64,000 nucleotides of DNA from Anatilimnocola floriformis (lineage in GTDB: Bacteria > Planctomycetota > Planctomycetia > Pirellulales > Pirellulaceae). The position numbers and the translations under genes are program-made. Positions 13,424 to 59,648 of this stretch are shown piece by piece. The stretch's first letter is position 1. Every line of letters starts with the position of its first letter. The stretch spans positions 5,580,001 to 5,644,000 of the forward strand of contig NZ_JAMLFW010000001.1 of the NCBI RefSeq assembly GCF_024256385.1, read 5' to 3'. The notes under the pieces were generated by a model. The model had not been told where the DNA came from. It saw only the letters and a list, made by a program, of their open reading frames with translations, and did no database searches.

Positions 13424-14353
13424 ATGCAACGGGCGACGATCCGGCCTAACAGGCCGATGGGGTTTACGTTGGTTGAGTTGCTGGTGGTGATTGCCATCAT
13501 CGGCGTACTCGTGGCTCTCTTGCTTCCTGCCGTGCAGGCCGCCCGCGAATCGGCTCGCCGCATGCAATGCAGCAACAACGTGAAGCAACTCGTGCTCGCT
13601 TCGCACAATTTGCACGACACCTATCTCGTGTTTCCGCCGGCTGGTGCTGCCGGCAATGCTTGGAACGGCCGCGTTTCTCGTGAAGGTCCGTTCAAGGGAC
13701 TGGCCGGTTCGTGGTTCTTTCACATCCTGCCATTTATCGAGCAGAGCAACTTGTACAACGGTGCGGTTGGCGCGGGCGGCGGCATGGATAGCACCTACAA
13801 CGGTAAGCTCGTTTACAACTATCAGCTGAAGGCCTATCGTTGCCCATCCGATCGCAGCCCTGGTTTGCAGCGCAACTATGGCAATCCCGCCGGCCCCGAT
13901 GCAACTCACGCGTTGAGCAATTACGGCGCGAACTATCTGGCTTTCGGCGATCCGATGACTGGTACGCAAGAAGGCGCCTCGAAGATGGCGACCTTCACCG
14001 ATGGCACTTCGAATCTGGTCTTCATTGGAGAACGCTACAGCTGGTACGGCACCACTCCGCTGTCGTGCTTGTGGGCCAATTCCGAAAATCGCTGGAGCCC
14101 GCAGATCTGCCGCGCTCCCGGCTCGAGCAACAGCACGACGGCCGGCTATGCCCCGTGCCCGAAGTTCCAAGTGGCCGTCATTTACACGGTGGCCAACGAC
14201 TCCACTTCAGGCGGCCAATCGTCGCATCCGGGCGTGATGAACATCGGCATGGGCGATGGCAGCGTGCGTGGCATTAACGGCTCGATCGCCGCCACCACTT
14301 GGGCCTACCTGTGCGATCCGCAGGATGGCAATCCGATTCCTGGCGACTTCTAA
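13424..14353 (+). CDS. DUF1559-type prepilin-like protein, copy 1
   Basis: 309 residues. The N-terminus [16 protein letters not shown] (residues 12-27) is a type II pseudopilin signal: prepilin peptidase should cut after the Gly before FTLVE, leaving Phe1 and Glu5. The helix continues through [24 protein letters not shown]. The rest is the planctomycete-rich DUF1559 body, with ADGSVR-like MGDGSVRGINGS near the C-terminus. Function is unproven; such proteins are thought to be surface or periplasmic and occur in many copies per genome. A small lipoprotein gene follows 42 bases downstream, a pattern seen three times in this window. Confidence 0.88.
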   Translation: MQRATIRPNRPMGFTLVELLVVIAIIGVLVALLLPAVQAARESARRMQCSNNVKQLVLASHNLHDTYLVFPPAGAAGNAWNGRVSREGPFKGLAGSWFFHILPFIEQSNLYNGAVGAGGGMDSTYNGKLVYNYQLKAYRCPSDRSPGLQRNYGNPAGPDATHALSNYGANYLAFGDPMTGTQEGASKMATFTDGTSNLVFIGERYSWYGTTPLSCLWANSENRWSPQICRAPGSSNSTTAGYAPCPKFQVAVIYTVANDSTSGGQSSHPGVMNIGMGDGSVRGINGSIAATTWAYLCDPQDGNPIPGDF

Positions 14354-16375: not shown

Positions 16376-16505
16376 AAAAGTGTGTCCCTTGGAGTTTCGC
16401 CGCCAGGAGAAAACTCCCTCCCACTGGGTCCGCCCAAGTAAAGCATCCACCCGAATGAGCGCCGCAGGTTGCTGCGGCCCAGAAACGCGCCGGAGGCGTG
16501 CAACA

Positions 16506-17501
16506 ATGCGATTTGCTGCCAGTCCCCGAACCTTTGCGCATCGACCGCGACTGGCAGCTCGCGCTTTCACCCTGGTTGAACTCCTGGTGGTGATTGCCAT
16601 CATCGGCGCCCTGGTCGCACTCTTGCTGCCGGCAGTCCAAGCCGCCCGCGAAGCCGCCCGCCGTTCGCAGTGCACCAATAACCTGAAACAAGTCGCCCTT
16701 AGCTCGCACAATTTTCACGATACCTTCGGCAGGTTTCCGGCAGGCACGCTCGGCACACTCCCCACGCTCCCGGCCACGGGCGTTGATCTGGACAACGATC
16801 AATGCATTGGGGCCATCGCGTCGTTGCTCCCTTACATCGAGCAACAAGGCGCGGCGAATATGATTCATCGCAAGCTCGGTTACGACCAACGTGAGTCCTT
16901 CTGGGCCAATGATTCTTCGACCCTCGACGCAGCCCGCATGAAGACCAAGGTGCTCGTCTGCCCTTCGACCAATCCCTACGAACATCAGGCCGACAACACG
17001 ATCGTGATGCAGTATCCGGTCGAAACGCAGCCCGCCGGTCCTTCGCCAACTGCCATCGTCTATTTCCAATACGCGATGCCTGATCCGGCCGGTCGAACGT
17101 TGGGCCGTACCAATTACGTCGGCTGCGGCGGCCTCGGCGCTGATATCCCTGGCTGGGAAAACTATCGCGGCGTTTTTTATAATCGCAGCAATACGCGCAT
17201 GAGCGACATCACCGACGGCAACAGCAACACGCTGCTGTTCGGCGAAGCCATCGGCGGCAAACCGACTCCCAGCGCCAGCTCGCGGCAATACGGTTTCACT
17301 TGGATGGGCGTGGGATATCTGGCCAACTACCAAGGCCTGCGCGGCAAGTCGTGGAGCAGCTTCAGCTCGGAGCATCCCCGCGTGGTGCTGTTTGCATTAG
17401 CCGACGGCTCGGTGCGGCCGGTCAGTATGGGCATCGATCTCTACAACTACTTCGACGCCGCGAGCATCGCCGACGGCAGACTCACCAAGCTCGATCCTTG
17501 A
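16506..17501 (+). CDS. DUF1559-type prepilin-like protein, copy 2
   Basis: 331 residues from the ATG at 16506, which has GGAGG about 12 bases upstream; in-frame starts at 16380 and 16455 would add an unlikely tail. Pseudopilin signal [20 protein letters not shown] (about 18-37), with Ala before the Phe, followed by [20 protein letters not shown]. The DUF1559 body contains the [11 protein letters not shown] segment and ends with [13 protein letters not shown]. Expected to be exported and anchored by its N-terminal helix. A lipoprotein gene follows 22 bases later. Confidence 0.88.
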
Positions 17502-34416: not shown

Positions 34417-35376
34417 TTAATCTACTTCAGCGCCGTTCATCGTACCCATCGCCCGCCACGAAGTGAGGCTGATGTTATCGGTAATGAATCGTTGCGAGCC
34501 GTCGGCGAACATCACGTTCACACCGCCTGGATGCTGACTACGGGCTGCCTTCGAACGATTGGCGCCGGTGGTGCAAGGCAGTTTGTGCTGCGTGTCATCC
34601 ACGCAGTAATTGGGCGCCATGGTATCGGGCGTCCGAGAGTTCGGCGGATCGTTGGTCATGAAATAGGTGCAGGCTTCATCGTCGTTCAGCATGTCGCCGC
34701 GATGATCCATGTGAGTATTCACGATCGGAGCGCGCATTTCGGACATCAGCATCGTCGAAGACGTGCCGTCGGTGATTTCGGCCAGCTTGCTCTGCCGCGG
34801 CTTGTCACGCGAAGCGAAGTCGGTGTAACCAAAGGGCGAAAAGGCCACGGGAGTGGTCAAAGCTGGCTGGGTCACATCGCCCCAGTTCAAGTTGTAGTTG
34901 CCCTTGGCCCGAAACGAAGGATCGCCCGGCGCGAGCTGCATCGCATTCACGCGGTCGCTCGGGCAGTAGTAGATGTTGATGCGCTTGCCGACCGGCGAAT
35001 CGAGCGAATTTTGAATCGTATTCGGAACGTCCGAAAAATTGAGATCGAAACGGTACGAATCGAACAACGCTTTTTGTTCGACATAAGGCCACAGCTGCGG
35101 CACCCACACCGTGCGCGGATTCGACTTCGCAGCGTAAGGGAGCTTTTCGAAGGTATCGACGTGCAAGTGCATGCCGAGGCCCCATTGGCGCAAGTGATTA
35201 AGGCACTGGGTTCGGCGGGCTGCTTCGCGGGCCGATTGCACGGCCGGCAGCAAGAGCGCCACCAACACGCCGATAATCGCAATCACCACCAGAAGCTCGA
35301 CCAGGGTAAAAGCACTTTGGGTCTGCTGCGGACGACAAGCTCGCACGCGAAAGAGAGACGAAGACTGGCGAATCAT
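34417..35376 (-). CDS. DUF1559-type prepilin-like protein, copy 3
   Basis: 319 residues from the ATG at 35376; the frame runs on upstream to 35568 without support. Pseudopilin signal [19 protein letters not shown] (about 22-40), then REAARRTQCLNHLRQWG. The DUF1559 body has LAEITDGTSSTMLMSE, and near the C-terminus HPGGVNVMFADGSQRFIT. Expected to be exported with an N-terminal helix cut by prepilin peptidase. Followed by its lipoprotein partner. Confidence 0.88.
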   Translation of the reverse strand: MIRQSSSLFRVRACRPQQTQSAFTLVELLVVIAIIGVLVALLLPAVQSAREAARRTQCLNHLRQWGLGMHLHVDTFEKLPYAAKSNPRTVWVPQLWPYVEQKALFDSYRFDLNFSDVPNTIQNSLDSPVGKRINIYYCPSDRVNAMQLAPGDPSFRAKGNYNLNWGDVTQPALTTPVAFSPFGYTDFASRDKPRQSKLAEITDGTSSTMLMSEMRAPIVNTHMDHRGDMLNDDEACTYFMTNDPPNSRTPDTMAPNYCVDDTQHKLPCTTGANRSKAARSQHPGGVNVMFADGSQRFITDNISLTSWRAMGTMNGAEVD

Positions 35377-35521
35377 TGGTGTACTCAGGGAGAGCTTGGT
35401 ACCTACGGAAGCAGGTCGGTATAGCCTACCAACGGGGGCGGGTAGATTCAATCTAGTTAATTTTTGCAAAATCGTTACGAAAAATGTTCGCCGGACTCGC
35501 GCTGGTGTTTGGTCGCGAGTT

Positions 35522-36091
35522 TTAGCCCAATTTCGCCCTGTTTGAGGGAGTGCTGCGTGTTGCCGCACTGGGGGCGAGCCGGGTCGCGATCTGTTCGGCC
35601 GCGGCGTAGCGTTGCAGCAGTTCTTTCATTCGCCGTTGGCGATGGGCTTCGCATTCGACGGCGATGTTTTCGACGGACCAAACTCGCACGGCCGAGCGGG
35701 CTTCGTCGGCGAGGTCTTCGCGGACGATGGCATCGAGCCAGGCGAAGGCGAGGGTCGGAATGGCGATGGCGGCGCCGACTTCGACTTGATATTCGGCGAC
35801 CGCGGCGGCGACTTCGCGCAGTTCGCGGCTAGGTTGATCGGGCGTATCGAACAGTTGCAGCATGTCGGCGAGGACATCGCACAAGAACTCAACCCGCACC
35901 TGGCTGGTCAAGCGGAACTGCTGGCCGTCAGCGCGAACCCAGCCGGTGGCGAGAATCGCCTCGCGCAAGAACTCCAGGGGAAAACCTTCCCGCAGCAGCA
36001 GCGAACCTTGTTGCGCCGGGGCCGAGGCGAGTTGCAGCACGGCGAGGCGATAGGGTTCGTCGTAGATCAGCGTCAGCTTGTCATCGAGCAT
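35522..36091 (-). CDS. hypothetical protein
   Basis: 189 residues from the ATG at 36091, which has AAGAGGTGG at the right distance; an ATG at 36160 lacks this. No signal or membrane segment. Helical in look, with an acidic centre (VEFLCDVLADMLQLFDTP; AWLDAIVREDLADEARSAV) and a basic, Thr/Ser-rich tail. Not recognised. It is divergent from the ligase cassette, with a 305-base gap. Confidence 0.6.
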   Translation of the reverse strand: MLDDKLTLIYDEPYRLAVLQLASAPAQQGSLLLREGFPLEFLREAILATGWVRADGQQFRLTSQVRVEFLCDVLADMLQLFDTPDQPSRELREVAAAVAEYQVEVGAAIAIPTLAFAWLDAIVREDLADEARSAVRVWSVENIAVECEAHRQRRMKELLQRYAAAEQIATRLAPSAATRSTPSNRAKLG

Positions 36092-48030: not shown

Positions 48031-49179
48031 CTATTCGCCCTGCGATTCTACGGCGTAGGGGCTCTCAGAACGCCGACGCGGGAGGTTACCTTGGGTCCGT
48101 TGCGGGCGGCGGAACCGAGGATCGTTCAGCACGCTCGATTCGCCGGGGCGAACGCGAGTTTCGATATTCTGGTCGAGCGAGTCCAGGGTATCGACGATGC
48201 GGCTCGTGCTGATCCGTTCATTGTTCGCCAGCGGATTCTTGCCGTTTTGCGGATCGAAGAATTCCGAGAGCTGCATGAACGCTGGGCTCATCAGGATGAT
48301 GAGAGCGGCCGGTGCGAAGCAGAACAGCAGCGGGAACGTGAGGAACACCGGCAGCCGGTTGGCTTGCAGGTTGGCCAGGTTCTTACGGGTCGTGCGGAAG
48401 TGGTCGGCTTGTTCGAGCAAAGAGCCGCTGATGCTGGCGCCCAGTTGATCACCGCGAGTGAGCAACGTGGCGACCTGGCGAACTTCCGGCGAGTCGATGC
48501 GGTTGGCCCAGTCCGACAGAGCCATACGCAGGCTGCCAACATCGGCCTGGCGACGCATGATCTGCAACTCTTCGCCGAGCGCGGGATAAGCAGTCAAGTT
48601 CTTCGAAACGTGATCGAGGCTGTGCGACAACGGCATGCCACCGCCGAGACACATGCCCAGCATATCGAGCATGTCGGCGAGACCGGCATTGATCTGAGCC
48701 ACTCGCTTTTGCCGCCGCAGATACACCCACATACGAGGCGTGATCGAGAGAATCGCAGTAATCACGCCGCCCACGATCAAGATCCGCCAGGTCTGGCTCG
48801 GCGGCGAGGCGATTGCGAGCAATCCCGTGCAAAACAGCGGGAAGACTAGCAGGATAAAACGGTAAGCGTAAATGCTTTGGCGAGCGGTGGGGCTGTACAA
48901 ACCAGCCTGCCGCAACATCTGGCCGAACTCGACGCGTTCCTTTTCCGATTCCGGAATCTGCGAGGCGAGAGCCTCGGTCAGCGGACCAAACACACCACCG
49001 CTTGATCGACGCGGATCGGCGGGTTGCTCTGGCGTCGCGTCCTGCTTCTTGCTGAAGAGCAAGCGCAGCACGACCGGAACAGCGAGCAATAAGCAAGCGA
49101 CACCGAACCAGGCCACCGGGCTTTGCAGCCACTCGGGAGCACCTTGATCGGCGAGCCAGGCTTGAATGTCTTGGATCAT
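48031..49179 (-). CDS. tadC: Tad pilus inner-membrane platform protein TadC
   Basis: 382 residues. T2SSF-type protein, second platform component of the Tad (Flp pilus) secretion system. An N-terminal helix (about 22-40), a pair near 108-145, the T2SSF domain (INAGLADMLDMLGMCLGGGMPLSHSLDHVSK ... ATLLTRGDQLGASISGSLLEQA) and a terminal helix pair (LPVFLTFPLLFCFAPAALIILM). An extra C-terminal 80-residue tail is charged and Arg-rich. A 96-base repeat-filled gap separates it from tadB. Confidence 0.9.
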   Translation of the reverse strand: MIQDIQAWLADQGAPEWLQSPVAWFGVACLLLAVPVVLRLLFSKKQDATPEQPADPRRSSGGVFGPLTEALASQIPESEKERVEFGQMLRQAGLYSPTARQSIYAYRFILLVFPLFCTGLLAIASPPSQTWRILIVGGVITAILSITPRMWVYLRRQKRVAQINAGLADMLDMLGMCLGGGMPLSHSLDHVSKNLTAYPALGEELQIMRRQADVGSLRMALSDWANRIDSPEVRQVATLLTRGDQLGASISGSLLEQADHFRTTRKNLANLQANRLPVFLTFPLLFCFAPAALIILMSPAFMQLSEFFDPQNGKNPLANNERISTSRIVDTLDSLDQNIETRVRPGESSVLNDPRFRRPQRTQGNLPRRRSESPYAVESQGE

Positions 49180-49198
49180 GGTTGGTTCCGTATGAGGT

Positions 49199-49273
49199 AG
49201 CCCGTAGCGTGAGCGAGGGCGTGTTCTTGAAAATCGTGAGCGAACGAGGACTCCCTCGCTAACGCTACGGGCT
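49199..49273. repeat. long inverted repeat in the tadB-tadC gap
   Basis: Arms 49199-49219 and 49253-49273 (outer part AGCCCGTAGCG/CGCTACGGGCT) match at 20 of 21 positions around a 33-base loop. It almost fills the gap between the two genes. Confidence 0.7.
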
Positions 49274-49275
49274 TC

Positions 49276-50169
49276 CTAGTAGCTAGTGCGAAGGATGCGC
49301 CATACCCACAGGCCACCGATGGCTTGCAGGATGAAGGCGGTGGCCAGCAACCACGGGCCCTTCGAATTGGCCATGAACTTGTTGATGTAGTCGGGCTCGA
49401 TCCAACCCAGGATGAAAATCGCGAGGATGGTGCCGACGAACATGCCGATCGCCGAAAGGCGACCACCAGCCGTGACGGCCATCATGTGACTGCGAACTTC
49501 CTGACGATCGCGAGCGGCTTTGCTCATGCGCTCGCTGAGGAGCGACAAGTTACCACCCGCGCGACGGTGAACCACGACCGCCGTGCTGAAGATCCGGAAC
49601 TCCGGCAGCGGAATGCGGCGGGCCATGCGAGTCATCACGCTCACGGGAGCATGACCGAGCTCAAGTTGTTCGTGGGCATAACCAAATTCGGCACCGAGCG
49701 GGCCTTTGATTTCTTTCGAGACCAACGAGCACGCTTCTGACAGCGTTTGCCCCGAGCGGATCGAGTCCGAAACGGCTTGCAGAGCTTGCGGCAGGGCGTT
49801 CTGCATCTTCCGCAAGCGGAAGAAACGAACGATGCTGAAATACAAAATCACCAGCGAAATGCCGAGGACCATGCCACCGGCAGCACCGAGCAAATTATCG
49901 AACAGCAAGAACGGCAAGCCGGCCGCAGCCAGGCCGACACCGAAGGTCAGCATCAGCGCGGTGGACATATCCATCGCAACGCCCGATTGCTCGATCAGCC
50001 GGAAGAACCAACCGTCGATGCCGCCAGTGGGCTCTTCGGCAGCGAATTCCAGCCGTTGCCGGCCCGTCTTGGTTTTCGTAAACAGGTCGCGCAGGAACAA
50101 GCCGATGGCGGCGAGTCCGGCTGACACCGAAGCGAAGGTGATGGTGATGAGTGCGAGTTGTGCGGTCAT
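49276..50169 (-). CDS. tadB: Tad pilus inner-membrane platform protein TadB
   Basis: 297 residues. Forms the inner-membrane platform with TadC. Helix at 5-24, pair at about 70-110, T2SSF domain (ALPQALQAVSDSIRSGQTLSEACSLVSKE ... VVVHRRAGGNLSLLSERMSKAARDR), terminal helices from about 230. Its start overlaps the CpaF stop by four bases, typical of coupled tad genes. Confidence 0.9.
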   Translation of the reverse strand: MTAQLALITITFASVSAGLAAIGLFLRDLFTKTKTGRQRLEFAAEEPTGGIDGWFFRLIEQSGVAMDMSTALMLTFGVGLAAAGLPFLLFDNLLGAAGGMVLGISLVILYFSIVRFFRLRKMQNALPQALQAVSDSIRSGQTLSEACSLVSKEIKGPLGAEFGYAHEQLELGHAPVSVMTRMARRIPLPEFRIFSTAVVVHRRAGGNLSLLSERMSKAARDRQEVRSHMMAVTAGGRLSAIGMFVGTILAIFILGWIEPDYINKFMANSKGPWLLATAFILQAIGGLWVWRILRTSY

Positions 50170-51590
50170 GCGAGGTTCCCTTGCAGAGCCAAAGCAGCCG
50201 TTCCTTCGGCAACGGTCATCGGCCCGATCGCTTGATCGGCGCTGAGTTTGCGAGCTGTGAACAACCGTTCGTTGAGTTCGATGCCGGTTTCATTCAGGCG
50301 GCGGAGGAAGTTCGGCTTGTTGCCAGTGGCAAAGAAGTGGCCACGAGCAATGCCTCGTTCATCGACACCCGTTTGCTGGAAGCCGAACAAGTCCTGAACC
50401 GTGTAATCGTTGTTATCGAGCGAAGTGATTTCCGAAACCTTCATCACGCGACGCACGCCACCCTTGAGGCGAGCGAGATGCACCACGACGGTGATGGCCG
50501 ACGCGATGTAACGACGAGTGACGCTCACCGGCAGCTCGAAGCCGCTCATGCTCACCATCACTTCGAGACGCGAAAGAGCGTCGCGAGTGTCGTTGGCGTG
50601 AATCGTGGTCATCGAACCTTCGTGACCTGTATTCATAGCCTGAAGCATGTCCAGAGCTTCACCTCCGCGGACTTCGCCCAGGATGATGCGGTCAGGACGC
50701 ATACGCAGGGCGTTGCGAACCAGGTCGCGTTGCGACACTTCGGCGGCGCCTTCGGGATTCTTCGGACGGGTTTCCAGCTTCACAACGTGCTTCCGTTGCA
50801 AATTGAGTTCCGCCGAATCTTCGATCGTCACCAAACGTTCGTTCGCGGGGATATAGCGCGATAGAATATTCAGCATGGTCGTTTTACCGCTACCAGTACC
50901 ACCACTGATCATGAGGTTAATGCGACCTTCAATGGCTGCTTCGAGGACCTGCATGATTTCGGGGCAAACCGAGCCGCGGAGCATGATGTCGTTAATTTGC
51001 AACGGACGATGTCCGAAGCGGCGAATTGACAACACCGGGCCGCCGAGGGCCAGTGGCGGAATGATGGCATTCACGCGGGAGCCATCGGCGAGGCGGGCGT
51101 CGACCATCGGCGAGTGTTCGTCAATGCGGCGGCCGACGCGAGCGGCGATGCGCTGGATGATTTGCAGCAAGTGTTCTTCGTCGGCAAAGACAGTGTTCGT
51201 CTCTTGCAGCCGACCGAGGCGTTCCACATACACTTCGCCGGGGCCGTTCACCAGAATATCGGTGACGTCCGGATCCTGCATGTAGATCTCGAGCGGGCCG
51301 AGACCGAACGATTCGGCGATCAATTCATCGACCAGGCGTTCTTCGTCGATCGGCGGCAGCTTGCGGCTGCGAGCCCGCATCATCCCTTCGGCGAGATGAC
51401 GAATGTCTTCGCGCAGCTCTTCTTCGGTCAGACCGGCGATGCGCGACAGATCGAGCGAGTCGAGCAGTTCGCGGTGGATGCCGGTTTTCAGCCGCTGAAA
51501 TTCGGCTTCGACGGTTTCCGCGTGCAGCAGCGCATCGGTTTGGCTAGTGCCGTTTTTCTCACCGGTGTGCCGGGACGATTGCAGAAACAT
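50166..51590 (-). CDS. cpaF: Tad pilus assembly ATPase TadA/CpaF
   Basis: 474 residues. Secretion ATPase that powers Flp pilus assembly. Walker [15 protein letters not shown] near residue 235, the Asp-box [12 protein letters not shown], Walker [18 protein letters not shown], and [16 protein letters not shown] with conserved His. N-terminal domain includes [18 protein letters not shown]. The symbol avoids confusion with the tRNA deaminase tadA. It overlaps tadB. Confidence 0.94.
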
Positions 51591-51635
51591 GCTGTGAGCT
51601 CCTTCGAACGATTGGGCTACTTCGCTGCGGCGTGC

Positions 51636-52868
51636 TTAACGCGTGAGGCGAATCTTGTGGATGTATAAATTTTCTGGAACGCTGGTCGCACCCGGAAAAG
51701 TCCGCTGGGTTTCGACCGTGCTGTGAATGACAAAATCGGGTTGCAGACGCACTCGCAACCGACCGCCAGCGGCATCGGCATTGAGAACGCGAGCGCCGAT
51801 GAAACCGACGATGCTGGAGGGATCGGTAAACGCGCCGTTGTAAATCGGAAACGCCCGGCGGGGATTGGTGCTGGCCGCCACGCCGTTGAAGGCCGCAGCA
51901 ATATTCGTCAAATCACCGGCGGGGCTCATTTGCGTCGAGTCGAACAGCAACGGAGCCGCATTCGTCAACGGACCAAGCGTTCCCGTCACGTTGTTCACGT
52001 CGGCTGGGCCGATACCATTCGTCACTTGGTTGGCCACCGCACCTGTCGAGAGGGCCGACAAGTTGTTCAGGCTGATTAGCGCACTGTTCGCCGTGCCGAG
52101 ACCGCCCGAGGTGAGGAGCGTGAAATCGAGCTCGAGGCGACCGTCTGGCAATTGCGAATCATCTGCATTGGTAACCCGCGTGGTGAACCAGGCAGCGGCG
52201 TTGAGTGCGAGCGGCGCGACGGGCGAACGCGTTGCGGTCAGCGGGCGGAAGCCCACGACGCGACTGTCGAGCGTGGCGTACGAGGCACTCGTGATCTTGG
52301 CTGTTTGATCCGAACCCTGCCCGCGGAAGATTAGTTCCACGGGGTTCATGCTGTTCGGAGCCCGCAGGATTTCGACCACCAGCGTGTTGTAAGGCTGGCC
52401 GGCAGCAGGGGTCGTGGTGTAGTTGCTGGGGGCAGCGACGGCGGCTGCAGCGTTGTCGATGCGGGCCGCAGTGATTGTCAACTGATTGGCTGCCGGCCGC
52501 AGATTGGCGCCCGCGGCAGCATTGTTGCGAGCGAGGAAACCAGTTCCCGCCGTCGTGATCTCGGCTTGAGCCTGCGTGATGTCGTCGGTCTGCGTGCCTG
52601 GGAAGGCTTGCGTGTCGGACAACACTTGCTCGTCGAGCAAAGCTTTGACCGCGGTCAGCGACAGCGAGTCGCTCAGCCGGAGCGTATGCCGGCTGACGAG
52701 CACGAGGTAGGTCCAGTTCACGACCAGCATCAGAGTGACGATGCAGATCATGATGAACATGATGGCAAACAGCGACGAGAAGCCGCGGCGCAACCTCCGA
52801 CCGGCGCCGCGCGGCCGCAGAGCGGTCGCGAGCAAGTCGCAGGTCGTTGTGGTGGTGAGGTGGCTCAT
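51636..52868 (-). CDS. TadG-like pilus-associated protein
   Basis: 410 residues from the ATG at 52868; a TTG at 52883 is less likely. Basic N-terminus, then a single membrane helix (about 33-57, FSSLFAIMFIMICIVTLMLVVNWTYLVL in pieces). This fits TadG-like proteins and those starting with a Tad-type pseudopilin helix. A long Thr/Ala/Asn-rich extracytoplasmic beta part follows (SRHTLRLSDSLSLTAVKALLDEQVL, then repeated A-N-x-L-x-x-T). Located between cpaB and cpaF in the locus. The TadG assignment comes from position and shape rather than a motif. Confidence 0.62.
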   Translation of the reverse strand: MSHLTTTTTCDLLATALRPRGAGRRLRRGFSSLFAIMFIMICIVTLMLVVNWTYLVLVSRHTLRLSDSLSLTAVKALLDEQVLSDTQAFPGTQTDDITQAQAEITTAGTGFLARNNAAAGANLRPAANQLTITAARIDNAAAAVAAPSNYTTTPAAGQPYNTLVVEILRAPNSMNPVELIFRGQGSDQTAKITSASYATLDSRVVGFRPLTATRSPVAPLALNAAAWFTTRVTNADDSQLPDGRLELDFTLLTSGGLGTANSALISLNNLSALSTGAVANQVTNGIGPADVNNVTGTLGPLTNAAPLLFDSTQMSPAGDLTNIAAAFNGVAASTNPRRAFPIYNGAFTDPSSIVGFIGARVLNADAAGGRLRVRLQPDFVIHSTVETQRTFPGATSVPENLYIHKIRLTR

Positions 52869-52930
52869 GGTTACGTTAGGCAAGAGACGTTGCTGTTGAA
52901 TCAGACTGGATACTGGTTACCGCGTAGCGT

Positions 52931-53941
52931 TTACTGCTCGAGTACTTCAGCCGGCACTTCCGCCGGCAGATCCACCGGTTCGGTGACACCGCTGGGGATG
53001 TAGCTCGTGTTGAACTTGGGTTCGGCCGGCGGAGCCGCAATCGGCTTGCTGGTCGTATTCACATCGCGTGATTCCTTCACGCGGTCGTCGCTCATTTCGA
53101 CAACGTTCAAGCGGCCACCGCTCCACTTCTCGACGACGTACTTCTTCGCCGGTTTGGCGGGCACAACTTCCTTCAGACCCAGCAATTGGCGACGAGTGAC
53201 GATGTCCGAACCTTCAATCGGTTCAGCTTCCAGATCCTTGGCGGCAACCAGGTTGACGCTGAGGACGCCGGTCCGCTGAGCCACGACCAGTTTGTTGGCA
53301 TCGGCCGGCTTGACAGCGACGGTCAGCGTTTGGACGTTCCGCTGCACGCGAGTATTCACGCCACGGATGAGCGGCCGGCTAGCGGCGGAATCCACGACGA
53401 GGACGTTCCGCATCAGCGTGCGAGTGGCCACTTCACCGATCTCCGGGTGAGTTCCTTCGACGGTCAGCGAGATATCGACATAGTCACCTTCGCCGAAACG
53501 CTTGCCGCCGGATTCTGTGTTAGCGACGCTCACCGTCACCGCTCGCATACCAGCCGGAAGCCGATCAGCCAGGTCTGGCAGAGCTTCGCCGATTTCAAGC
53601 AGGTATTCTTCGCGAATCGCCTGGCCAGCCTTGATGATCTGGTTGGTGATTCGCCCTTCGGCGATTGCCACGTTGGCAAAAGTTCCCTTGGCCGCCTTCG
53701 ACGTACGAGGAACGTATGCGATCAAGAGGTCCGCCGGGAGCAGCTTGCCGCTCTTGGGAATGTTGTTGCGGGCAAACACGACCTGCACGCCCGGATCGAT
53801 CGGAGCCGGAGCCGGCGGAGGTACAACGACCTTCGCGACTGGAGGTTTGTGCATCGCCTGTTTGACGATGTAAGCGGCCACGAGGCCGAGTACCAGGGCC
53901 ATCACGCCAAAGGTCACGGTTGCGGGACTAATTCGTTTCAC
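52931..53941 (-). CDS. cpaB: Flp pilus assembly protein CpaB (RcpC)
   Basis: 336 residues. Helix at 8-28 (VTFGVMALVLGLVAAYIV), a proline-rich stretch (VVVPPPAPAPIDP), then an SAF domain (VVFARNNIPKSGKLLPADLL ... GRITNQIIKAGQAI). The beta-rich C-terminal half (VTVSVANTESGGKRFGEGDYVDI, TLTVAVKPADANKLVVAQRTG) matches CpaB. Anchored in the inner membrane with the domain in the periplasm; thought to help the secretin or pilus. No secretin gene follows it here, contrary to the usual order. Confidence 0.88.
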   Translation of the reverse strand: MKRISPATVTFGVMALVLGLVAAYIVKQAMHKPPVAKVVVPPPAPAPIDPGVQVVFARNNIPKSGKLLPADLLIAYVPRTSKAAKGTFANVAIAEGRITNQIIKAGQAIREEYLLEIGEALPDLADRLPAGMRAVTVSVANTESGGKRFGEGDYVDISLTVEGTHPEIGEVATRTLMRNVLVVDSAASRPLIRGVNTRVQRNVQTLTVAVKPADANKLVVAQRTGVLSVNLVAAKDLEAEPIEGSDIVTRRQLLGLKEVVPAKPAKKYVVEKWSGGRLNVVEMSDDRVKESRDVNTTSKPIAAPPAEPKFNTSYIPSGVTEPVDLPAEVPAEVLEQ

Positions 53942-53990
53942 TGCAAAATCTCCTCACCACTGCGAATGCTGTAAATTCCGAAAAGATTAG

Positions 53991-54449
53991 TTATTCCTTG
54001 CGAGTCACGTACGTTGTCGTGATCTCTTTACCAGCCAGGCTAATGCCGAAGTACTTAAGCAAATCCGGGGCCGCCTGATCCGACTCGACGTTCACCGTCA
54101 CGCTGACGATCGAACCCGAAGGAGCGCTCGACAGCACTGTGCCGGATATGTCTTTGACAAACCCGCCGCCGGAATCGACGTAGATCACCGTTTCCTGAGC
54201 GCTCTGCCAGATGTAACCGTCAAGTGCGGCATTTACCGCAGCTTCAACGCTGGCTTTGCTGGAGCTAGGCAAGGCCGAGTTGCGGCTGCCGTGAGCGGCC
54301 GCTGCTCCCACGCCTTGCGACGACATGAGCAGAATGCCGAACTCGACCGTGGCCAGCAGGACCATCAGCAGAATGGGCAGGACCATAATCAACTCGAGCG
54401 CGAGCACAGCTCCCTGGCGTGTGCGGCGTTTTTTAGTGAATTGTTTCAT
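53991..54449 (-). CDS. tadE: TadE-family pseudopilin
   Basis: 152 residues. Basic leader KKRRTRQGAVLALELIMVLPILLMVLLATVEFGILL carries the prepilin-peptidase site (cut near GA before VLALEL, leaving Glu at +5), followed by the membrane helix. The rest has ARG/HGSRNSALPSSSKASVEAAVNAAL and beta strands. A minor pseudopilin of the Flp system. Lies between cpaB and the prepilin peptidase gene. Confidence 0.84.
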   Translation of the reverse strand: MKQFTKKRRTRQGAVLALELIMVLPILLMVLLATVEFGILLMSSQGVGAAAAHGSRNSALPSSSKASVEAAVNAALDGYIWQSAQETVIYVDSGGGFVKDISGTVLSSAPSGSIVSVTVNVESDQAAPDLLKYFGISLAGKEITTTYVTRKE

Positions 54450-54565
54450 GATCTTTACTGAGTGAATTGATTTCGAAAGTCGTGAGGTATCGCGTCAACG
54501 TTTCGCAACACTTTGTTGCCATTCAGCAACCGAAACCTCGATTTCTGCCAGCTGGAATACTGTTC

Positions 54566-55093
54566 TTAACTCCGAAGCAACATCCAGGCCAAAGTCAGGT
54601 ACGTGCCAATCGCAACTGGAATGGCGAAGGGGAGAACACGTTTCGTTTTCTTAGCCTTCGCGTCGGCATTCACGGTTCCGCCGTTAGCGCCGGCCGTGAG
54701 GAATTTGCGCTGCGTGCTGCTGATGCCGCTGGTGACAACGCTGCCGAACATCAAGCTCATCGCCATCAAGGCCGCGATCCCCGCGCCACAAGCAAAGGCC
54801 ACCAGAATGCCGATCGGTCCCAGCCAGGATCCAAGAGCGGCCAGCATCTTCACGTCGCCCATGCCGCCGCCGCCGAGCAACCACGGCAACAGGAGCAGGC
54901 CGAAGCCGATCGCAAATCCGGCGAGCGCCATCCACGGGCCAAAGCCATTGGGCGCAAAAGAGTGATAGAGCAGTCCCAGTACTGCGGTCGGCACCGTCAG
55001 CCAGTTCGGGATCTTGCGTGTGCGATAGTCGGTGAAGGCCGCGGCGGTGATGAAACCGGCCACGAGCACGACATAGTCATAACCCACAATCAT
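54566..55093 (-). CDS. cpaA: prepilin peptidase (TadV/CpaA)
   Basis: 175 residues. Aspartic membrane protease that cuts prepilin leaders. The two catalytic Asp are D22 (FTDYRTRKIPN) and D80 (GGGGMGDVKML), each in the family motif. Multiple helices. The ATG at 55093 starts MIVGYDYVVLV; an upstream start would add residues without a helix. It is the likely processing enzyme for the six prepilins next to it and possibly for the DUF1559 pseudopilins. Confidence 0.9.
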   Translation of the reverse strand: MIVGYDYVVLVAGFITAAAFTDYRTRKIPNWLTVPTAVLGLLYHSFAPNGFGPWMALAGFAIGFGLLLLPWLLGGGGMGDVKMLAALGSWLGPIGILVAFACGAGIAALMAMSLMFGSVVTSGISSTQRKFLTAGANGGTVNADAKAKKTKRVLPFAIPVAIGTYLTLAWMLLRS

Positions 55094-55339
55094 CGGCGGC
55101 CTGCCTTGATAGTGAAAGCGGAAGTGAATACACGGAAAACCCACCGGGCGCACGAATGCGCACCGGGGGCACCTTGCTCTGCAACTCTAGGTTGAACTTT
55201 AGGTTTTTCCGGCGGAGGTGCGGCTTCATGCCACTCCCTCATCCGAATGTTGCCCGTGGGCAACGCTCACTCCCGAAGAAATGCTTGCACTGCGCGGAAT
55301 AATCGTTACGAAACGAAATTCTTCCGCCTGGAAGCAAAA

Positions 55340-55639
55340 TTAGGAATCGCTGTCGTCCCGCGGGAACTGACCGATCACACCGCCGCGATCGCAATCCTGA
55401 AAGGTATGCGTGGGCTGCGTATAGGTGATTGCGGGAAACGGCCCAAAGGCCGCGAGCGTAAAGCTCTGGTCGATATTCAGATAGGCCTCGGCCACATCGC
55501 CGAGCTCATCAATGATGGCATCGCGACCTGCGGCCAGGCCGCCGACAATTCCGAAGACAACGAGGATGCCCAGGATCGTCCACTCGAAGGAAAGCACGCC
55601 GTCGGTTTCCTGCCACAGGGCAGAGATAAACTTTTGCAT
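55340..55639 (-). CDS. Flp-type prepilin paralog 1
   Basis: 99 residues. Leader MQKFISALWQETDG with Gly14, then VLSFEW, so the cut leaves Glu at +5 (E5-W6; classical Flp pilins have E5-Y6). Membrane helix WTILGILVVFGIVGGLAAGRDAIIDELGD, then a beta part with FQDC and the C-terminal D-S-D-S. Shares these features with five tandem neighbours. Likely pilus subunit. Confidence 0.82.
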   Translation of the reverse strand: MQKFISALWQETDGVLSFEWTILGILVVFGIVGGLAAGRDAIIDELGDVAEAYLNIDQSFTLAAFGPFPAITYTQPTHTFQDCDRGGVIGQFPRDDSDS

Positions 55640-55697
55640 GAGGAACACCTGCAGTTGAAAGATGAGATCGTTCAGAAGTGGCCGAGACGCAATTCGA

Positions 55698-56045
55698 TTA
55701 CGAATCGCTGTCCGTCACTCCCTGCGGTGTTTGACCGATCGGCGCCGCCGCGCGAGTGCAATCGGTATAAACAAAGTCTTTCGCTTGTTCCTGAAAATCG
55801 CTCGCCGGCGTAGTGAAGTCGGCCGTACCGTTGCCGTCGAAATCGATCGACAGGCCTGCCAGACTAAAGCTCTGGTCAATACCTTGAGCGGCTTCGGCAA
55901 AGTCGCCCAACTCATCGATGATTGCATCGCGAGCGCCGGCCAGGCCGCTAACAATGCCGATCACGAGCAGCGTTAAGAGCATGGTCCATTCGAACGAAAG
56001 GACAGCGTCTTGTTCGACCCACATCTTCTGGAGGCAGCGTTTCAT
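55698..56045 (-). CDS. Flp-type prepilin paralog 2
   Basis: 115 residues from the ATG at 56045 (upstream ATG at 56060 possible). Leader ends DA rather than DG before VLSFEW: Ala14 at -1, so processing may differ. Helix TMLLTLLVIGIVSGLAGARDAIIDELGDFAEA, then a Gly/Asp beta part, YTDCTR and the ending TDSDS. Same strand and layout as the other copies. Confidence 0.8.
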   Translation of the reverse strand: MKRCLQKMWVEQDAVLSFEWTMLLTLLVIGIVSGLAGARDAIIDELGDFAEAAQGIDQSFSLAGLSIDFDGNGTADFTTPASDFQEQAKDFVYTDCTRAAAPIGQTPQGVTDSDS

Positions 56046-56263
56046 GTTGCTTTTTTCCATCGCATGAAGCGCGCCGGCAACATTGCCGACGCATCGGTTA
56101 ACCAACAAATTCAGGAAGCGGCTTTCTCGATGCGCTCTGTGTTTCTGCGGCCGCTGTCATCGTGACCTGCGGCAATTTTGTTCGGCGAACGGTGTTCGCC
56201 AGGGGCAACATGGCCTCGTGATCCAGCTCTATTGCAAGCCGGATGCCAAAAGCCAGCGATTGA

Positions 56264-56611
56264 TTACGAATCGAAGTCGTCAAGTTCAGCGTGCTCGAGC
56301 GAGCTCTGGTTCGGCAGGACGTTGTTGCCCAGACGATCGCAGTCGGTGTAGATCAAAGCGTCGGTAAACGACGAATCGCTGGCCGAGCTGGTGGTCGAGG
56401 CGTGGACTTGGATGAGCAGCGGGAAATCGATCGTGTACGACTGATCGATCGAAAGCATCGCCTGTGCGGCGTCGCCAAATTCGTCGATGATCGCGTCACG
56501 GGCCGCGGCGATGCCAGAGACGATGCCAAAAGTCAACAAAGTGATGAGCAGCGTCCACTCGAACGAGATCACGCCGTCGTCTTCATTCCACATATTCGCG
56601 AGCAGGTGCAT
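56264..56611 (-). CDS. Flp-type prepilin paralog 3
   Basis: 115 residues from the ATG at 56611. Leader MHLLANMWNEDDG (Gly13), VISFEW, then helix LLITLLTFGIVSGIAAARDAIIDEFGDAAQA. Beta part DQSYTIDFPLLIQVHASTTSSASDSS, single Cys in YTDCDR, ending DDFDS. Close to paralog 5 in the DFPLL(I/V)QVHA(S/A)TTSSASDSSFTDAL segment. Confidence 0.82.
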   Translation of the reverse strand: MHLLANMWNEDDGVISFEWTLLITLLTFGIVSGIAAARDAIIDEFGDAAQAMLSIDQSYTIDFPLLIQVHASTTSSASDSSFTDALIYTDCDRLGNNVLPNQSSLEHAELDDFDS

Positions 56612-56718
56612 GTAAGTAATCCTGAGGGGTTGCGATTGTCTTCTCGTGCCAATCCTGGCAATTGTTCCGTTGGTTATGTCCGTTTTGCGTGCTGCAAGGA
56701 GCAAGCACGAGCCGTTGC

Positions 56719-57072
56719 TTAGGAGTCTGAGTCTGCTACGTTGCGCGGGTTCTGCCCGACAAACGCCGACCGGCTGCAATCGGTATATCGAATTGCATCC
56801 TGGAAACCGCTGTCGCTGGCGCCGCCCGTGCTGACGCCGTCGATGAGAAACACGAGGGGAAAGTCGATCGTGTAGGACGCATCGAGTGCCTGCATGGCCT
56901 GGGCGACGTCGCCCAGTTCGTCAATGACCGCATCACGCCCCGCTGCCAAACCGCCCACAATGCCGATGCACAGGAGCGAAGTCAGCAGCATCCACTCAAA
57001 CGAGAGAACACCGTCTTGTTCCTGCCAGAGGAGAGTTGCGAACTTCTTCAGCGAGCTTGCGTTACGTTGCAT
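56719..57072 (-). CDS. Flp-type prepilin paralog 4
   Basis: 117 residues from the ATG at 57072. The longest leader of the six (Gly21, ...FATLLWQEQDG), then VLSFEW and helix MLLTSLLCIGIVGGLAAGRDAVIDELGDVAQA. Beta part SYTIDFPLVFLIDGVSTGGASDSGFQDAI, YTDCSR, ending ADSDS. Confidence 0.82.
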   Translation of the reverse strand: MQRNASSLKKFATLLWQEQDGVLSFEWMLLTSLLCIGIVGGLAAGRDAVIDELGDVAQAMQALDASYTIDFPLVFLIDGVSTGGASDSGFQDAIRYTDCSRSAFVGQNPRNVADSDS

Positions 57073-57191
57073 GACTTTTCCTTTTACGTTCAATCCAGTT
57101 GTTGCCTGTGAACTGCGGAGGCAAATCGCCCGACGTGAACTCACCCGACCAAATTGGCCGGGTGAGTTCGTCGCCGTTCAGGCGATTCCGA

Positions 57192-57527
57192 TTAGGAATC
57201 GACGTCCTGCACTTGTTGCGGACTCTGTCCAGTCGGCGCAGCCGAACGGGTGCAGTCCGTATACGTCAAAGCATCGGTGAACGACGAATCGCTCGCCGAG
57301 CTTGTCGTAGCGGCGTGCACTTGAACCAGCAGCGGGAAATCAATCGTGTACGATTGATCGAGCGCCAGCATGGCCTGCGCCACGTCGCCGAATTCGTCGA
57401 TGATCGCATCACGGGCAGCAGCGACGCCCGAAACGATGCCAATCGTCAACAAAGTCAGCAGAAGGATCCACTCGAAGGAGAGGACGCCGTCCTCTTCCTT
57501 CCAAACACGAGCCAGAACTTTCTTCAT
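57192..57527 (-). CDS. Flp-type prepilin paralog 5
   Basis: 111 residues. Leader MKKVLARVWKEEDG (Gly14), VLSFEW, helix ILLLTLLTIGIVSGVAAARDAIIDEFGDVAQA, beta part SYTIDFPLLVQVHAATTSSASDSSFTDAL, YTDCTR and ending VQDVDS. A clean ATG start. First of the closely spaced run of five. Confidence 0.84.
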   Translation of the reverse strand: MKKVLARVWKEEDGVLSFEWILLLTLLTIGIVSGVAAARDAIIDEFGDVAQAMLALDQSYTIDFPLLVQVHAATTSSASDSSFTDALTYTDCTRSAAPTGQSPQQVQDVDS

Positions 57528-58297
57528 CCCAAACTCCTAGTACCAGGAACACGGAAAACACGCGTGGAGCGAACCAACATGGTCCGTTCCCGTCGGCGCT
57601 AGTTGTGCCCAAGCGCCGACTTTCTCGTGCCGAGGTGCTATGCACCGGCCATGCCGCGCAGCAAAACACATCAACATTTTTCTGTTGATGAGGGCAACGC
57701 TACTGCAATTAGCTGTTATGTCGATTGGGCTTAGAGAAGATTACGCCGTGCTCAATTTTTCTCGCGGCGGAATTGCAATATCCGCATGTGTTGCCATCGC
57801 GATACATGCTGTGCACGAGCGCTGAAGCGCAATGTTTACGCCAGGCAACAGGCACGTTCAAAAAGCAGCACGGAAAAATCGCTATATTCGCTACGAGATG
57901 ACTGCGATTGCGTGCGTAATTCGCGCATTTCTGCTGCGCATGTAGTAATGACGAAGGCAAGAAACAAAAAACTCCGCTGCTGGAGAACCAGCAGCGGAGT
58001 CTGCTTTCCGTGAACCAGCCGCCGCTTCGAACACTTTCGCCTGGTACAGCGAAAGAGTGAGTCTGAGATAACCTGACGGGGGGCACTCCCATCCTGGCTA
58101 TCTATCATGCGGGCGTACAGTCACGACACTTCGTAGGAGGTTGGTAGCTGATTAAAATTCGAGGTTGAGCGCTTCAATGTATTGTTGTGAAGTCTAGCTC
58201 ATGTTTCAGACGGTGAACCGTTGCTTACCTTTTTCGATTCTGCCTTTAACAACACTGCCGGTTAGGGCGATTTTTCTGAACGCTTTGTCAAGCGTTG
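57528..58297. other. 770-base gap inside the prepilin array
   Basis: Between prepilins 5 and 6. It holds the intrinsic terminator at 57966-58000 and a GC-rich structured stretch (about 58010-58110). A 127-codon minus-strand frame (57709-58092) is Cys/Arg-rich, crosses the terminator and looks non-coding. The stretch up to 57830 is AT-rich and probably contains the promoter for prepilin 5 and following genes. Confidence 0.45.
57966..58000 (-). terminator. intrinsic terminator, minus strand
   Basis: A perfect 13-bp stem ACTCCGCTGCTGG/CCAGCAGCGGAGT (57971-57983, 57988-58000) with a 4-base loop. Five A's at 57966-57970 give a U-run on the minus strand. It separates prepilin 6 from the other five. 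Confidence 0.85.
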
Positions 58298-58702
58298 TTA
58301 CTGAGGGGCTGGAGCAGCTTCGGCTGGATCAACCAGACCTGCAGGGCCAGTGAGGCCCGGGCCGCCTGCACGCCATTTGAACTCTTGCACCTTCGGACCA
58401 CCGCGGCTGCAATCACTGTAGGACATCGCATCGACAAACCGCGAGCTGGCGGCCGACGACGGAGTGTTGTTGATGCCATAGGCCCAGTCGTGCACACCGA
58501 TCACCAGCGGGGCGTCGATGAAGTACGACTGATCGAGGCAGAGCATGGCCTGCGACAGATCGCCGAACTCGTCGACCGTGCTATCCCGCACCGCCGTGAT
58601 ACCAGCGACAACCCCGACAGTCAGCAAAGACGTCAACAGCGTCCACTCGAACGACAACACGCCATCCGTATCGTGCCACATCTTCCACAACAGATTCTTC
58701 AC
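58298..58702 (-). CDS. Flp-type prepilin paralog 6 (GTG start)
   Basis: 134 residues from a GTG at 58702 with AAGGAG seven bases upstream; the earlier in-frame start is not supported. Leader MKNLLWKMWHDTDG (Gly14), VLSFEW, helix LLTSLLTVGVVAGITAVRDSTVDEFGDLSQA, beta part DQSYFIDAPLVIGVHD and YSDCSR. Unlike the others it has a Pro/Ala/Gly-rich C-terminal tail (VDPAEAAPAPQ) in place of the D-x-D-S ending. Confidence 0.8.
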   Translation of the reverse strand: MKNLLWKMWHDTDGVLSFEWTLLTSLLTVGVVAGITAVRDSTVDEFGDLSQAMLCLDQSYFIDAPLVIGVHDWAYGINNTPSSAASSRFVDAMSYSDCSRGGPKVQEFKWRAGGPGLTGPAGLVDPAEAAPAPQ

Positions 58703-59243
58703 GGAAAAGCTCCTTAACCTCAGGCTGCACGCCGCCAGGTAAATCGCTGGAAACACTCCAGTCAATCTTTGGCGACTCTTCAGGGAAAACATCGTAAACA
58801 TGTTAACCGGTCTTACCGGCATGTTTACTATCATTGGCAGAATCCGTACCAAATGCAAAACAGGCGCGAAGAAATCTTGTCACAATGTTCGCAAGATGAA
58901 CATCCGTAAAGAGTTAAAGACACTAACGAGTGTTTCGCGCAAGAGACAAGATGTTCAGCCGATGTAAAGCGATCTTAGCGCTGCTGCGCGGCGTGCTTGA
59001 CACGATGTTCAGAAAACTGAACAGCGGGCTTAACATTCGAGGCGAAATGTCAACGCGCGGGCGCGCCGCGTTTGAAAACCGAATCGCGCGGCGCTAAGCA
59101 GATTGAAGTTCAGCGGCCTGAACAACTCAAACGGCGACCTCGCGCGGCCGTTTTCTGAAATTTGAACATTGCCGGACGGATCGGGACGGCCTTATGCTAC
59201 CGATTCCTCTCGTCGCCCCGCTTCTTCTAGCCAGGTTCAAATC
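58703..59243. promoter_or_regulatory. divergent spacer with three TGTTC...GAACA palindromes
   Basis: Separates prepilin 6 (leftward) from a lipoprotein (rightward). Palindromes: ATGTTC-N7-GAACAT (58883-58901), TGTTCAG-N4-CTGAACA (59006-59023) and GTTCAG-N4-CTGAAC (59108-59123); a half site ATGTTCAG lies near 58951. A rightward promoter candidate TTGCCG-N18-TATGCT spans 59169-59198. The repeated sites suggest a shared regulator. Confidence 0.55.
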
Positions 59244-59648
59244 ATGAAATCCCGGTTCGCCATCATGTTGGCGTGCGCGATCACTTCGTCACTTCTGGGC
59301 TGCAGCGCAAAGCAGCCTGCGTTCGACCCGCTGCATGTGGTTGCCGGCAAGGTACAACGAGCAGGCACTCCGCTGGCCGGCGGCTTTCTCCGCTTCAATC
59401 CCATTCCCGACAAGCAAGAGTTCATCATCAACAGCAGCGTCGGCGCCGACGGAGCATTCAAGCTCACCACGGTCCGCACGACAGACTCCAAGGGAGAACG
59501 CCGCCCAGGCGCTCCCGCCGGCGAGTACTCTGTGGTCTATACGCCAGACTCGCCCGATCAAACCGCCGCCAATCCAATCACCTTGCCGCAGAAAGTCGTA
59601 ATCGAAGCCAAAGAGAATACGCTCACGCTGGAAGTGCCAGCCCGTTAA
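59244..59648 (+). CDS. lipoprotein
   Basis: 134 residues from the ATG at 59244; an earlier start at 59169 would sit in the promoter. Signal peptide with lipobox LLGC (Cys at residue 20). Body HVVAGKVQRAGTPLAGGFLRFNPIPD ... GADGAFKLTTVRTTDSKG ... PAGEYSVVYTPD has the same regulatory-like beta-sandwich pattern as the lipoproteins at 14.4 and 34 kb, but no DUF1559 gene sits beside it. Expected to be lipid-anchored. Confidence 0.78.
   Translation: MKSRFAIMLACAITSSLLGCSAKQPAFDPLHVVAGKVQRAGTPLAGGFLRFNPIPDKQEFIINSSVGADGAFKLTTVRTTDSKGERRPGAPAGEYSVVYTPDSPDQTAANPITLPQKVVIEAKENTLTLEVPAR

Follow-up and report, generated by a model that had tools for sequence, protein, structure and literature searches.

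A stretch of 64,000 nucleotides from Anatilimnocola floriformis (contig NZ_JAMLFW010000001.1, positions 5,580,001 to 5,644,000; the whole stretch is hereafter the window) contains a tight adherence (Tad) machine and, next to it, six prepilin genes that are intact, conserved and for the most part orthologous by position. Judging from sequence comparisons, we consider it moderately likely that these genes encode the six non-redundant pilins of a Tad-type pilus system, subunits which would have a common packing core and different exposed surfaces and be handled by one machine. The locus occupies positions 48031-58702 of the minus strand and consists, in transcription order, of the prepilin genes W1-W6 followed by the genes for CpaA, TadE, RcpC, a TadG-like protein, TadA, TadB and TadC. 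The six prepilin open reading frames (ORFs) were found at this one Tad locus, on the minus strand, where an earlier note on this DNA had placed them:

58298..58702, minus strand: prepilin W1, first of the array; GTG start preceded by AGGAG; two Cys in the mature part; Pro/Ala-rich tail
57969..58002, minus strand: terminator-like hairpin of 15 pairs after W1
57192..57527, minus strand: prepilin W2, core type; C-terminus DVDS
56719..57072, minus strand: prepilin W3; two Cys in the mature part; C-terminus DSDS
56264..56611, minus strand: prepilin W4, core type; C-terminus DFDS
55698..56045, minus strand: prepilin W5; Ala before the predicted cut; C-terminus DSDS
55340..55639, minus strand: prepilin W6, starting at ATG 55639 or GTG 55648; C-terminus DSDS

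Sequence features of the six prepilins and their relation to Flp

The six prepilins have a common N-terminal core, D-[GA] before the predicted cut and V[LI]SFEW after it, and diverged C-termini. Their alignment is free of gaps over the first 50 mature residues and diverges beyond; 24 columns are invariant, including the leader Trp and Asp, S-F-E-W, R-D, D-E, G-D and D-C-x-R. The VLSFEW or VISFEW start with Trp after Glu+5, described in the earlier note, is seen in all six, as are, in the translations, the five C-termini ending in D-x-D-S and the Pro/Ala tail of the sixth, W1. The leader had been given as W-x3-4-D-[GA]; W-x3-D occurs in all six, but the x4 spacing never does, and W5 carries Ala where the others carry Gly before the cut. 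Likewise, the Cys of the D-C-x-R motif is common to all six, but it is not the single Cys that had been claimed, as W1 and W3 hold a second one in the mature part. By eye, ribosome-binding-like sequences are clear upstream of W1, W2 and W3 and weaker upstream of W4 to W6.

The identification as pilins is upheld by the leader and Glu+5 motif, the long N-terminal helix, the adjacent A24 peptidase and TadABC, and a profile match to canonical Flp. The features of Tad (type IVc) pilins found in all six are the leader, a predicted cut site after Gly/Ala, Glu at +5 and a hydrophobic N-terminal helix. The AlphaFold2 model consists of a short leader helix followed by one long helix (13-56), with block-mean pLDDT of 86-96 over residues 21-50; no solved structural relative was found by sequence at E 1. 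Two features set the six apart. Mature Tad pilins reach an upper size of about 60 residues, and the predicted mature length of the six is 85-120. The Glu+5-Tyr+6 pair of Tad pilins is also missing, since the residue at +6 is Trp in all six and in 40 of the 40 rows of alignment A2, rows which were picked from the window and from loci L075-L088, some ORFs being omitted as cut by a contig end or as near-copies, and for which the search for loci used patterns including SFEW. In L065-L074, which are more distant arrays, the Glu is mostly followed by Leu, Ile or Phe, and by Tyr in short pilins; Trp+6 therefore marks the W1-W6 subfamily only.

No relevant Pfam or NCBIfam match, Flp_Fap (PF04964) included, was obtained for W1-W6, and none of the 40 family members matches PF04964 at E 0.1; a TMEM174 match of W5 (0.18) was regarded as noise. 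Seven short pilins of related loci have no Pfam match either; what the Pfam model overlooks thus extends beyond the W1-W6 subfamily. In hhalign, the family profile aligned with a profile of eleven canonical planctomycete Flp proteins at 91% (E 9.7e-7) over the leader, cut and membrane helix, a score which may be helped by membrane-segment composition; the controls gave 17% (E 0.0015) for TadE and 1.5% (E 0.035) for three DUF1559-like prepilins of the window. With profile matches this weak, a TadE-like or DUF1559-like identity of the six was rejected. The designation "Flp-type" in the earlier note needs care: the six have the profile-profile link to canonical Flp, but none of them matches PF04964. 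On these comparisons the six can be treated as Tad pilins in practice, but strictly they are a family of their own. As the family is overlooked by Pfam and NCBIfam, planctomycete Tad pilins are probably undercounted. The three control prepilins, presumably DUF1559-like, lie at 13424-14353, 16380-17501 and 34417-35568; the second and third are 38% identical to the first, and none gives a useful profile match to W1-W6.

Orthology, C-terminal tag and constraint

The evidence that the six are different subunits comes mainly from G001, the sole same-genus genome, the window's own aside, among 60 examined. It has six pilins (R1-R6) in the same order ahead of the same machinery, and its TadC is 72% identical to that of the window. 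When W1-W6 were matched with R1-R6, both labelled by gene order, the positional pairing ranked first of 720 for the whole mature proteins and for the C-terminal part alone. Directional best matches were positional in 11 of 12, with W4 as the exception (299 with R2, 292 with R4). A 62-row tree contains the clades W1/R1/P1/M1 (90/93), W3/R3 (99/97), W5/R5/P6 (98/93) and W6/R6/P7 (93/90); 26 of its 59 inner branches are open, its bootstrap had not settled, and the clustering of rows from L075, L076 and L077 is not independent because their labels were assigned after best matches had been viewed. Rows of this set, which also served for the tag count below, needed F-[ED]-W or an alternative six-letter start and at least 60 residues, and array rows of L065-L074 were left out; Trp+6 in this set is by choice, F-[ED]-W having been an entry condition. 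A seven-pilin array (L075, JALORD010000060.1, Pirellulaceae bacterium isolate Prado172) provides the reciprocal best matches of W1 and W5 with its first and sixth pilins, and its last pilin prefers W6 (171), which itself prefers the sixth (174 vs 171). The W5/W6 clade (88/92) also takes in the last genes of four more arrays: G031, which belongs to the window's family, G039, from a different family within the order, L078 and L081. Most of the six keep their identity and gene position in a related species, and they therefore look like specialised parts, not spare copies.

The divergence within the array points the same way. Mean identity among W1-W6 is 55% (38-75) and reaches 67% over the first 45 residues. 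The four PF04964 Flp proteins of a canonical Tad locus in the same genome (L096, C1:5325810-5327195) average 91% (84-98), and an orphan array of three pilins, also in this genome, averages 80% (76-85). The suggestion that the subunits are different rather than redundant is clearly supported for W1, W3, W5 and W6, by positional orthology, but not clearly for W2 and W4.

The D-x-D-S end, which had been taken for a functional C-terminal tag, is borne out as a conserved sequence feature: the pattern D-x-[DEN]-S, chosen post hoc, ends 21 of the 62 family rows, which are related to one another, against a mean of 0.15 and a maximum of 2 when the last 40 residues were shuffled 2000 times. In G001 the end reads D-I-E-S three times and D-N-E-S twice, counting the solitary copy, and it is missing from R1 and R4; the two species therefore carry different versions of the tag, each mostly common to the pilins of its species. 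Gene conversion was considered as its source; the tag codons vary among copies, which makes simple copying unlikely. Between positional partners, nonsynonymous divergence (dN) is 0.06-0.20 over the first 50 residues and 0.29-0.78 over the remainder, a contrast that fits a common packing core with variable exposed parts; synonymous divergence (dS) is high, from 0.99 to saturated, and dN/dS ratios are therefore rough.

Tad machinery, expression layout and distribution

Pfam and NCBIfam matches identify TadA, TadB, TadC, CpaA, RcpC and TadE together at the locus, as expected of a Tad locus, and the TadG-like protein has no family match in either database:

54566..55153, minus strand: prepilin peptidase CpaA/TadV (Peptidase_A24; PF01478, 4e-18)
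53991..54449, minus strand: TadE minor-pilin-like protein (PF07811, 2.5e-8)
52931..53941, minus strand: RcpC/CpaB (PF16976, 2.3e-17; TIGR03177, 2.4e-35)
51636..52883, minus strand: TadG-like protein, named by position and N-terminal hydrophobic segment only; a homologue lies at the corresponding place in locus L055
50166..51590, minus strand: TadA/CpaF ATPase (PF00437, 6.8e-60)
49276..50169, minus strand: TadB platform protein (PF00482, 1.4e-13)
48031..49179, minus strand: TadC platform protein (PF00482, 3.3e-14)

Four TadA-type ATPases were found in the genome at E 1e-10. Among the array loci of relatives, a TadZ-like gene is present in three distinct ones (L061, L062 and L066; L082 repeats the contig of L061), and an RcpA homologue lies in the stretch of three (L065, L067 and L071). 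At the canonical locus of the window's genome (L096, 4723-6213), four Flp genes with a VEY motif precede the genes for CpaA, an unlabelled ORF of 384 amino acids, RcpA and a TadZ-like protein, and no TadA, TadB or TadC gene was found within the 19 kb examined. Elsewhere in this genome (L014, L015 and L093; G000:C2:948-1008 kb), a further subtype is represented by two pilins that are almost identical. They stand beside very large ORFs of 2806 and 3276 amino acids, each running off the end of its stretch, and a CpaA-CpaB-TadABC-RcpA cluster lies between them.

Terminator-like hairpins follow the first pilin not only in the window but also in L055 (11285-11316) and L077 (9637-9674), and none was found after the first pilin of L075. 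The three hairpins suggest that the first pilin, W1 in the window, is probably expressed and controlled apart from the others. The gaps between W2 and W6 are 58-218 bases and the terminator scan found no strong minus-strand terminator among these genes, which favours co-expression of at least five. No sigma-70-type promoter was found in 54000-59300.

The six score 2.7e-36 to 9.7e-58 in the genome-wide profile search, with a profile built from these very sequences; the independent evidence is that of the relatives, 20 of the 60 genomes matching at E 1e-3 with the window's genome counted. The 40-row profile finds matches at 1e-5 in 71 of 396 genomes from the order, again counting the window's; per-genome pilin counts from this profile are lower bounds, as 11 candidates were scored in each genome. 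Pilins on the machinery strand were counted in 24 stretches, which remained from 26 with machinery and pilins once the contig repeats L080 (of L059) and L082 (of L061) were removed. They number one in two stretches, two in four, three in seven, four in five, five in three, six in two and seven in one, counts that include short pilins and come in part from stretches ending at contig ends. The earlier note gives one or two pilins for most Tad loci; the range in these 24 stretches is one to seven. The orphan array of the window's genome (L013 8227-10637; G000:C1:412-415 kb) consists of three W2-like pilins with no Tad machinery in 19 kb, and its counterpart in G001 is solitary (L056). In the distant arrays, one member seems to be without the conserved Glu, and elsewhere the Glu lies one residue further from the Gly (L065 6288-6620, L067 10059-10481, L068 10102-10461, L069 2976-3356, L071 9965-10339 and L072 1730-2137); these are possible tip-type subunits. 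Pilins of the planctomycete type also occur on contigs labelled Nitrospiraceae and Nealsonbacteria (L085 and L088), which are possibly misbinned. A literature search, which reached few subscription journals, found no publication on these planctomycete arrays.

Interpretation and comparison with known systems

In the reading we favor, six non-redundant subunits on one machine, the adjacent A24 peptidase would cut each prepilin after Gly/Ala. The common first ~50 residues, given their homology to Flp and the constraint on that half, would form the packing helix polymerised by TadA/B/C, and the diverged C-terminal 35-70 residues would present specialised surfaces to the outside, in five cases ending in the common acidic D-x-D-S. 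The W2/W4 type scores highest with the family profile and has related additional copies at other sites in the genome, which makes it the likelier shaft subunit; W3, W5 and W6 would be specialised subunits and W1 the member probably expressed apart. The six may co-assemble into mixed fibres or be swapped between conditions. Of the overall interpretation in the earlier note, the part on different subunits is the one upheld, best for four of the six.

Several observations weigh against this reading. R2 and R4 cluster with the solitary copy of their own genome, G001 (97/93), so the middle class (W2/W4 type) evolves partly in concert; W4 has R2 as its best match, and the orthology of this class between genomes is not clean. 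The class labels 2, 3 and 4 behave on the tree about as shuffled ones do (56, 40 and 500 of 500 shuffles equally low), and P3, N2 and N3 are placed outside the supported clades of their own labels. The genome search with PF04964 at E 0.01 found five other genes and none of W1-W6. The AlphaFold2 model is of low confidence in its C-terminal part (pLDDT about 42-53), where the specialised surfaces would lie, and a Foldseek search at E 10 gave no match. W1 and W2 have the highest and W5 and W6 the lowest codon bias of the six, by a measure that did not separate three GroEL controls from background. The 12 genome matches to the secretin family (PF00263) include none within the window, nor do the seven genome matches to TadZ-like queries, and export therefore needs parts encoded elsewhere.

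The last point bears on a reading that we regard as improbable, in which the six form a short pseudopilus of a secretion device, not a surface pilus: the window lacks RcpA and TadZ, but the genome encodes two RcpA-type secretins (Secretin plus T2SS-T3SS_pil_N) at other sites, so a secretin acting in trans is likely, and the flp-2 cluster of S. meliloti is described as being without a secretin gene, with a candidate pilQ2 outside the cluster (PMC10934763). That tandem copies simply raise pilin supply is very improbable. The tandem arrangement and the partly concerted W2/W4-like copies are what such amplification would give, but six genes of 55% mean identity with positional orthology are unlike the 91% array of the same genome, which is dosage-like, and we reject this explanation.

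Two further readings seem to us rather unlikely. The machine could polymerise each pilin into a separate fibre, with expression switched by condition, as the Haloferax PilA1-6 precedent illustrates (PMC4371748); the common core, the variable C-termini and the hairpins behind the first pilin in the window, L055 and L077 agree with such homopolymers, but the close spacing and lack of a strong terminator from W2 to W6 favor co-expression of at least five. To about the same degree, and overlapping with the favored reading, one major pilin could be accompanied by dedicated minor pilins that form or couple a tip. The Kil pilus is reported to combine a single major pilin with 14 minor ones, of which two are Flp-like adapters (PMC12075869), and TadE and a TadG-like protein are present at the window locus; however, Glu+5 and the full assembly core are kept in all six, and no sequence feature singles out one pilin as major. 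Somewhat more doubtful still is an ordered heteropolymer of old, position-specific Tad subunits, the gene order of which is partly conserved across Pirellulales families, with a Trp+6 lattice unlike the Glu-Tyr one and an acidic C-terminus serving as a docking tag read by one partner.

With gene order, orthology and a dosage-like control all available in one genome, the array lends itself to asking how a compact Tad machine deals with several different subunits, and it opens the roles of the +6 residue and the C-terminal tag to direct testing. Among known systems, Caulobacter PilA and canonical Flp (PF04964) are like the window pilins in having a prepilin leader with a Gly/Ala cut, Glu+5, an N-terminal helix and CpaA plus TadABC machinery. 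However, the window pilins have 85-120 mature residues and no Pfam match, against 45 residues in Caulobacter, and Trp in all A2 rows at the position of the lattice-forming Tyr, whose hydrogen-bonded pair with Glu is described for the Caulobacter pilin as conserved across Tad pilins (PMC11067988). The tandem pilins of L096 likewise stand ahead of a cpaA gene but are near-identical PF04964 proteins with VEY, accompanied by RcpA and a TadZ-like protein.

Other bacteria are also known to have more than two Flp genes, though fewer than six. Bdellovibrio has four, flp1-4, two of them in the Tad operon; they are reported not to be interchangeable and were called the largest and most diverse complement known in a 2017 abstract (PMC5430801). 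For Ca. L. asiaticus five flp genes are given (PMC8454146). For a multi-pilin repertoire as such, archaeal PilA1-6 and the Kil pilus are, by analogy, the precedents. Haloferax volcanii PilA1-6, like the window, comprise six pilins with a common hydrophobic assembly segment, the H-domain, and each is described as forming pili alone, with differing adhesion; unlike the window pilins, they are archaeal, none is co-regulated with biosynthesis genes according to a review, and their H-domain is almost completely conserved (PMC4371748), against 67% mean identity in the first 45 residues here. The Kil pilus of Myxococcus xanthus, as its report describes it, also combines a Tad-like machine with a large and functionally varied pilin repertoire, but its variety lies in tip minor-pilin complexes from four clusters (PMC12075869), whereas that of the window lies in six Flp-like subunits of one array.

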